Positions 46,827-47,630 of a DNA stretch of 64,000 nt are shown piece by piece (position 1 is the first letter of the stretch; every line of letters starts with the position of its first letter). The stretch lies in the NCBI GenBank assembly GCA_016869765.1, contig VGES01000001.1:124001-188000 (forward strand), read 5' to 3'. The stretch comes from Alphaproteobacteria bacterium. Lineage in GTDB: Bacteria > Pseudomonadota > Alphaproteobacteria > SHVP01. The notes beneath the pieces are model-generated. The model was not told the origin of the DNA, made no database searches, and was given only the letters and a program-made list of their open reading frames with translations. The translations under genes were made by a program, and so were the position numbers.

Positions 46827-46855
46827 CTTGAACCTTCGCGCGCGCTATCCCATAT
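46827..46855 (+). promoter_or_regulatory. Candidate heat-shock sigma (RpoH/sigma32-type) promoter of hsp20
   Basis: CTTGAA at 46827-46832, 16-bp spacer, CCCATAT at 46849-46855; about 65 bp upstream of hsp20 ATG. Confidence 0.7.
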
Positions 46856-46895
46856 CTTTTCGGCAAGCGGGTGCCTTCGTGGGCCCGCGACGCCG

Positions 46896-46912
46896 CTCGC
46901 TCATTCGAGGAG
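46896..46912 (+). promoter_or_regulatory. Candidate ROSE-like RNA thermometer hairpin masking hsp20 Shine-Dalgarno
   Basis: CUCGCUC-AUUC-GAGGAG: 6 bp with one bulged G; UCGCU opposite AGGA; SD lies 8 nt before ATG at 46921. Confidence 0.55.
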
Positions 46913-46920
46913 ACGTGACG

Positions 46921-47388
46921 ATGGCGCGACTGACGCTATTCAATTCACCGATGTTGCTGGGCTTCGACGAAATCGAGCGCACGCTCGATCGTCTTACCAA
47001 GTCCGCGACGGACGGCTACCCGCCCTATAACATCGAGCAACTCGACGACGACCGGATGCGCATTACACTCGCCGTGGCCGGCTTTGCCGGCGACGACCTG
47101 TCCGTCGTGGTCGAGGACAATCAGCTGATCATCCGCGGCAAACAGAAGGACGAAGAAAGCGAACGCGTTTTCCTGCATCGCGGAATTGCCGCACGCCACT
47201 TCCAGCGCGCGTTTGTCGTCGCCGATGGCATCGAGGTGGTGGGAGCGTCGCTCGACAACGGATTGCTGCATGTCGATCTGGTTCGCCCCAAAGCTCAGAG
47301 CACGGTGCGTTCCATTCCGATCAAGACCGGCGAGGGCACGAAGGTGCGGAAGTTGTCCGAGGTCGCGGTCGACAAGCGGGCGTCCTAA
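46921..47388 (+). CDS. Hsp20 family small heat shock protein
   Basis: PPYNIEQLDDDRMRITLAVAGFAGDDLSVVVEDNQLIIRGKQ...RVFLHRGIAARHFQRAFVVADGIEV alpha-crystallin domain. Confidence 0.95.
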   Translation: MARLTLFNSPMLLGFDEIERTLDRLTKSATDGYPPYNIEQLDDDRMRITLAVAGFAGDDLSVVVEDNQLIIRGKQKDEESERVFLHRGIAARHFQRAFVVADGIEVVGASLDNGLLHVDLVRPKAQSTVRSIPIKTGEGTKVRKLSEVAVDKRAS

Positions 47389-47411: not shown

Positions 47412-47630
47412 ATGAACCATCCCAGCACGGAACGAAAGAAGATGTCGGCGGAGGCCTTTGCGGCGCTCGGTGCCCCACTGCTGGCTTACATCAAACCGGT
47501 GAAGGTCGACGGGACGTTCGCCTACGCGGTGCACGCGGCCGATGGCCGTGAGTTGGCGGTATTCGCCGATCGCAGTCTGGCGATCGCTGCCGCGGCGCAG
47601 AACGACTTGGCGCCCGTCTCGGTACACTGA
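47412..47630 (+). CDS. DUF1150 family protein
   Basis: LGAPLLAYIKPVKVDGTFAYAVHAADGRELAVFADRSLAIAAAAQNDLAPVSVH; conserved position after hsp20 gene. Confidence 0.85.
   Translation: MNHPSTERKKMSAEAFAALGAPLLAYIKPVKVDGTFAYAVHAADGRELAVFADRSLAIAAAAQNDLAPVSVH

Follow-up and report, generated by a model that had tools for sequence, protein, structure and literature searches.

The segment 46864-46920 of the window, i.e. of the whole stretch of 64,000 nucleotides analysed, is very probably a short two-hairpin RNA thermometer of the ROSE-like kind in the 5' leader of an hsp20 gene, behind an RpoH-type promoter, with hairpin II as the sensing element and hairpin I as a stable one. The comparison of leaders supports a combined heat control of hsp20, in which RpoH-type transcription and ROSE-like translational control would act together. 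Judged by its features, the leader is an unlisted alphaproteobacterial ROSE-like leader, of a kind already known and a member of no listed Rfam family. The ROSE-like leader is ordinary in kind, and the more interesting part is the hairpin I module that it shares with other leaders. The positions of the features are collected in Table 1.

Table 1. Positions of promoter, leader, and gene features at the hsp20 locus, numbered along the window
Feature	Position	Strand	Basis
-35 box CTTGAA, RpoH (sigma32)-type promoter	46827..46832	+	sequence; 15-16 nt spacer conserved class-wide
-10 box CCCATAT, RpoH-type promoter	46849..46855	+	sequence
Hairpin I, GCGGGU-[G46873]-CC UUCGU GG-GCCCGC, bulged-G module YGCC/GGR, covarying outer stem	46867..46888	+	
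Hairpin II, putative thermosensor, CUC-[G46899]-CUC AUUC GAGGAG	46896..46912	+	
Shine-Dalgarno GAGGAG, wholly within hairpin II, 8 nt before ATG 46921	46907..46912	+	sequence
hsp20 (alpha-crystallin small heat-shock protein, 155 aa)	46921..47388	+	Pfam PF00011 68.2 bits
DUF1150 protein, 72 aa, downstream partner of hsp20	47412..47630	+	Pfam PF06620 61.6 bits

The minimum-energy fold of the leader consists of exactly hairpins I and II. In hairpin I, GCGGGUGCC (46867-46875) pairs with GGGCCCGC (46881-46888). Hairpin II is built from CUCGCUC (46896-46902), the loop AUUC (46903-46906), and the Shine-Dalgarno sequence, and UCGCU (46897-46901) lies opposite AGGA (46908-46911) with a single bulged G. 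The initial annotation had described the same 3' hairpin with a GC-rich hairpin 5' of it, a fully paired Shine-Dalgarno sequence, and one bulged G in the UCGCU/AGGA pairing, and all of these details are correct in both the sequence and the fold. The fold is no more stable than those of shuffled sequences (z -0.38). The energy is thus uninformative, and the evidence for the leader is comparative and not energetic. The same value is what one would expect if the hairpins had arisen by chance in a GC-rich leader and the likeness to ROSE were accidental, but this explanation is contradicted by the conservation, the covariation, and the detection of held-out leaders described below, and its probability is negligible.

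The 101 orthologous leaders that we compared come from 21 loci in the genome of the window and in related genomes, with the window's own leader among them, and from 80 loci in named genomes. The core of hairpin II, YYGCU..AGGR at most 60 nt from the start codon, was found in 91 of them as compared to 4.1 after shuffling, and the strict UYGCU form in 81 as compared to 2.0; about 10% of the leaders have no recognisable hairpin II core. Hairpin I, defined as stem-Y-G-CC-loop-GG-R-stem, is present in 78 of the 101 leaders, as compared to 4.4 after shuffling and 0-6 in control stretches 400-1000 nt upstream.

The training alignment was made from 34 orthologous leaders, with the window's own left out. 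Its covariation score was 0.399 as compared to 0.224 for shuffled alignments, a value that none of 500 shuffles attained, and the score was much lower in every register to which the alignment was slid. Conservation of the core columns in this alignment is partly due to the selection of the sequences, that of the flanking pairs is not. The outer pairs of hairpin I swap among G-C, A-U, U-A, and C-G, and in hairpin II U-A changes to U-G, and C-G to U-A or G-C. In a held-out alignment of 39 matches, which was fitted to the covariance model R1, 94.6% of the cells were paired and the covariation score was 0.472 as compared to 0.219 after shuffling (0 of 500 reaching it). In these held-out relatives helix II was paired in 97.0% of the cells, with two-sided changes in four of its six pairs, and helix I in 92.9%, with two-sided changes in five of eight. 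The initial annotation had staked its reading on the UYGCU/AGGA pairing being kept in relatives; the pairing is conserved, and both helices covary. RNAalifold by itself predicted hairpin I and not hairpin II, as expected from the weakness of the latter helix.

The covariance model R1, built from the 34 training leaders, detected the leader in the window at 46864-46923 with 43.4 bits and an E-value of 4.4e-8. Over the whole genome the E-value for this leader was 2.7e-6, and the next match was at 0.35. When R1 was applied to 80 loci outside the training set, all 39 matches (E at most 0.1) were located at an hsp20 start. The searches were extended over about 600 proteobacterial genomes, made up of 39 relatives, 289 genomes of the class, and 299 of the phylum. 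Among the 48 best matches that were fetched (E below 0.005), 46 are found directly before a same-strand Hsp20 reading frame; of the other two, one precedes clpB (L179) and one ends at a contig edge (L182). The matches outside Alphaproteobacteria belong mostly to one family with IbpA-type proteins. Taken with the conservation and the covariation, the R1 match supports the earlier reading of a ROSE-like leader of a very short two-hairpin type. A weak R1 match, 16.6 bits, was also seen in the E. coli ibpB leader (L225:2896-2960).

The CTTGAA-N16-CCCATAT promoter first proposed is present at 46827-46855. Its two boxes, CTTGAA-like and CCCATNT-like and separated by a conserved spacing of here 16 nt, are those of an RpoH (sigma32) promoter, and it scores 13 out of 13, which makes the use of RpoH at hsp20 plausible. 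Promoters of this type with a score of at least 11 were found in 74 of the 101 orthologous leaders, as compared to 3.6 after shuffling, mostly with spacers of 15-16 nt. In leaders with a single module, hairpin I mostly starts 5-12 nt past the -10 box, and this predicts a transcript start just 5' of hairpin I; when the distance is longer, the leader often carries a second hairpin I module. The hsp20 transcript would thus probably start at about 46861-46864, ahead of hairpin I, which would give a leader of about 57-60 nt with two hairpins.

Such a position at the 5' end is also what would be expected if hairpin I mainly guarded the mRNA from 5'-end-dependent decay, while hairpin II fixed translation at a low level without sensing temperature. 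Stabilisation by a 5' hairpin has been proposed for Pseudomonas ibpA (PMC3669281). For such protection, however, any stable hairpin would suffice, yet the Y-G-CC/GGR core of hairpin I with its one unpaired G is fixed while the outer stem covaries. Moreover, the bulged G of ROSE is retained in hairpin II throughout the class, a feature that a stem acting by simple repression would not require. We therefore consider this explanation improbable.

In the thermometer reading, heat would induce transcription of hsp20 from the RpoH-type promoter. The conserved ROSE core points to hairpin II as the thermosensor that would mask GAGGAG: at low temperature its CUC-G-CUC strand would pair with GAGGAG through the ROSE core and limit ribosome binding, and warming would loosen the short helix and let more translation add to the RpoH-driven transcription. 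Hairpin I would be a stable 5'-terminal element that does not melt, and it may help to fold, protect, or regulate the leader. In the nearest-neighbour model the mean pairing of 46906-46911 goes from 0.76 at 25 C to 0.65 at 42 C, an opening that is only gradual, and removal of the bulged G of hairpin II gives a tighter lock. This model omits the non-canonical pairs of ROSE, and for that reason the gradual opening neither proves nor refutes sensing.

A ROSE-like element is defined as two to four hairpins in about 60 to over 100 nt before a small heat-shock gene, with U(U/C)GCU imperfectly paired, around a bulged G, with the AGGA of the Shine-Dalgarno sequence in the hairpin nearest the 3' end. 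The leader described here stands before a small heat-shock gene, has UCGCU/AGGA with a bulged G in its 3' hairpin, and, with the predicted transcript start, consists of two hairpins in about 60 nt. It is not a FourU thermometer; the anti-Shine-Dalgarno sequence is CUCGCUC, without a run of four U opposite AGGA. The initial annotation had pointed to the Rfam ROSE models as a check. The leader is ROSE-like by its features, but RF00435, RF01832, and RF02523 gave no match to it even at E-values up to 10, and it reaches none of their gathering cut-offs (45, 65, and 43 bits, respectively). The alphaproteobacterial leaders thus add an unlisted branch to the ROSE-like leaders, found cleanly by R1 and missed by Rfam.

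The closest relative is RF02523 (ROSE_3), a short two-hairpin ROSE-like element before IbpA-type genes in another proteobacterial class. Like the leader in the window, its elements have two hairpins in about 60 nt and UYGCU/AGGA with a bulged G beside the start codon, and they also carry the hairpin I core (GAUGCC..GGGUC), and R1 detects them; the leaders found by R1 in the family with IbpA-type proteins score 65-77 bits as RF02523. Unlike in RF02523, the genes here are of the Hsp20-DUF1150 type and not of the IbpA type, and none of the 289 alphaproteobacterial genomes had an RF02523 match over the cut-off. From three of the loci (L180, L189, and L190), the RF02523 family appears to correspond to the ibpA elements of Pseudomonas, where short two-hairpin leaders (61-62 nt, U(U/C)GCU, bulged G) have been shown to be thermometers (PMC3669281). 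If this identity is right, R1 joins the alphaproteobacterial leaders to those short ROSE-like elements.

The enterobacterial ibpA element, RF01832 (ROSE_2), resembles the leader in its UYGCU-type anti-Shine-Dalgarno sequence before an Hsp20 gene; it had no match in 41 genomes including that of the window, and the E. coli control was detected. The classical alphaproteobacterial ROSE element is RF00435, with Bradyrhizobium hspA as founding member. It has the same logic in the 3' hairpin, and its consensus opens with a ccGCC..GGgg hairpin, but it differs in having one more hairpin in the middle and in the greater length of its 3' stem. An element of this family (48.2 bits) is located before a different hsp20 of the window's genome (L035:1501-1595, G000:C46:6201-6295), at a locus that adjoins a second hsp20 copy. 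According to a review, ROSE elements are always tied to small heat-shock genes (PMC4166951), and ABC transporter genes have since been added to the genes associated with them (PMC11342760).

The geometry of hairpin I is that of the ROSE core in hairpin II (Y-G-CU/AGG), with C-G replacing U-A, and its core also occurs within the consensus sequences of RF00435 and RF02523. Several longer hsp20 leaders (L007, L008, L045, L057, L058, L083, and L104) have tandem copies of hairpin I 5' of the ROSE hairpin, and in some leaders from Acetobacteraceae (L080, L092, L093, and L103) hairpin I has the form GGGUGC-UUCG-GGUCC with a UUCG tetraloop. R1 also gave matches before clpB in several genomes, at 32.2 bits for L179/L226, 28.8 for L285, 27.4 for L261, 26.3 for L227, and 20.8 for L317, and the last of these scored 29.4 bits with RF02523, below the cut-off.

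We surveyed 124 alphaproteobacterial clpB leaders (L195-L330) for a broader form of the module, YGC[CU]/RG[GA], which takes in both YGCC and YGCU. It was found in 79 of them as compared to 5.2 after shuffling; 13 leaders had it over the Shine-Dalgarno sequence (0.65 shuffled; L198, L212, and L226 are examples) and 11 in both positions (0.05 shuffled). Since the module is often located off the Shine-Dalgarno sequence in clpB leaders, it need not act by masking alone. It was present in 33 of 659 leaders of other open frames and in one of 30 groES leaders, a few of which are possibly mis-oriented, and the groES count rules it out as a general feature of heat-shock leaders. A model of hairpin I alone (R2) was too short for a genome-wide search, with most of its matches inside coding sequence and no trustworthy list of further genes; of its five best places, three were those of hsp20 paralogues or of clpB.

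The clpB leader of the window's own genome (L210, G000:C20) has one module upstream and one over the Shine-Dalgarno sequence. The simple second hairpin over the Shine-Dalgarno sequence is absent from its minimum-energy fold, and we therefore claim no clpB thermometer for this genome. Nor was a clpB thermometer found among the titles and abstracts of the open-access papers that were searched for clpB. It is conceivable, as a tentative suggestion, that hairpin I, near the 5' end of hsp20 and clpB mRNAs, is a shared, recognised RNA module of the disaggregation pathway, and that a common factor, for instance Hsp20, or a common thermometer logic couples the synthesis of Hsp20 and the ClpB disaggregase. 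The enrichment before clpB is measured, and the function and the common factor are inference. The function of the 5' hairpins in ROSE-like elements is not fully understood (PMC3669281), and a bulged-G module common to hsp20 and clpB leaders makes their role testable. Should the leaders of clpB act as thermometers, or have a binding site in common with those of hsp20, two partners in disaggregation would be linked at the mRNA level.

An invariant bulged-G module in a covarying stem, which recurs before clpB, is also what would be expected of a motif recognised by a protein. The hairpins could chiefly be a binding site for Hsp20, which would repress its own synthesis as IbpA does in E. coli until heat draws it to aggregates and relieves the repression. 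Self-repression by IbpA acts through the 5' UTR and depends on R93 together with an aromatic side chain at position Y34 (PMC10474464). In the protein alignment Y33 and R92 of Hsp20 are aligned with these two residues and are invariant among 17 orthologues, a likeness in sequence only, and they may be kept for the fold of the protein. The sensing of temperature would then fall to the protein no less than to the RNA, and such a role is compatible with a thermometer. We regard this explanation as possible but rather doubtful, and keep to the thermometer as the preferred reading of the leader.

The hsp20 gene and the DUF1150 gene probably form one operon. The locus has a gene for a hexapeptide-repeat protein upstream, and downstream genes for an M23 peptidase, a PtsN-type EIIA protein, and RpoN. 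At the protein level the closest relatives are Rhodospirillales-type Alphaproteobacteria, and the genome (4.0 Mb in 164 contigs) has four Hsp20 matches. The hsp20 reading frame meets no stop codon as far upstream as a TTG at 46828, within the promoter, and an automatic gene caller could therefore begin the gene there and mask the leader.
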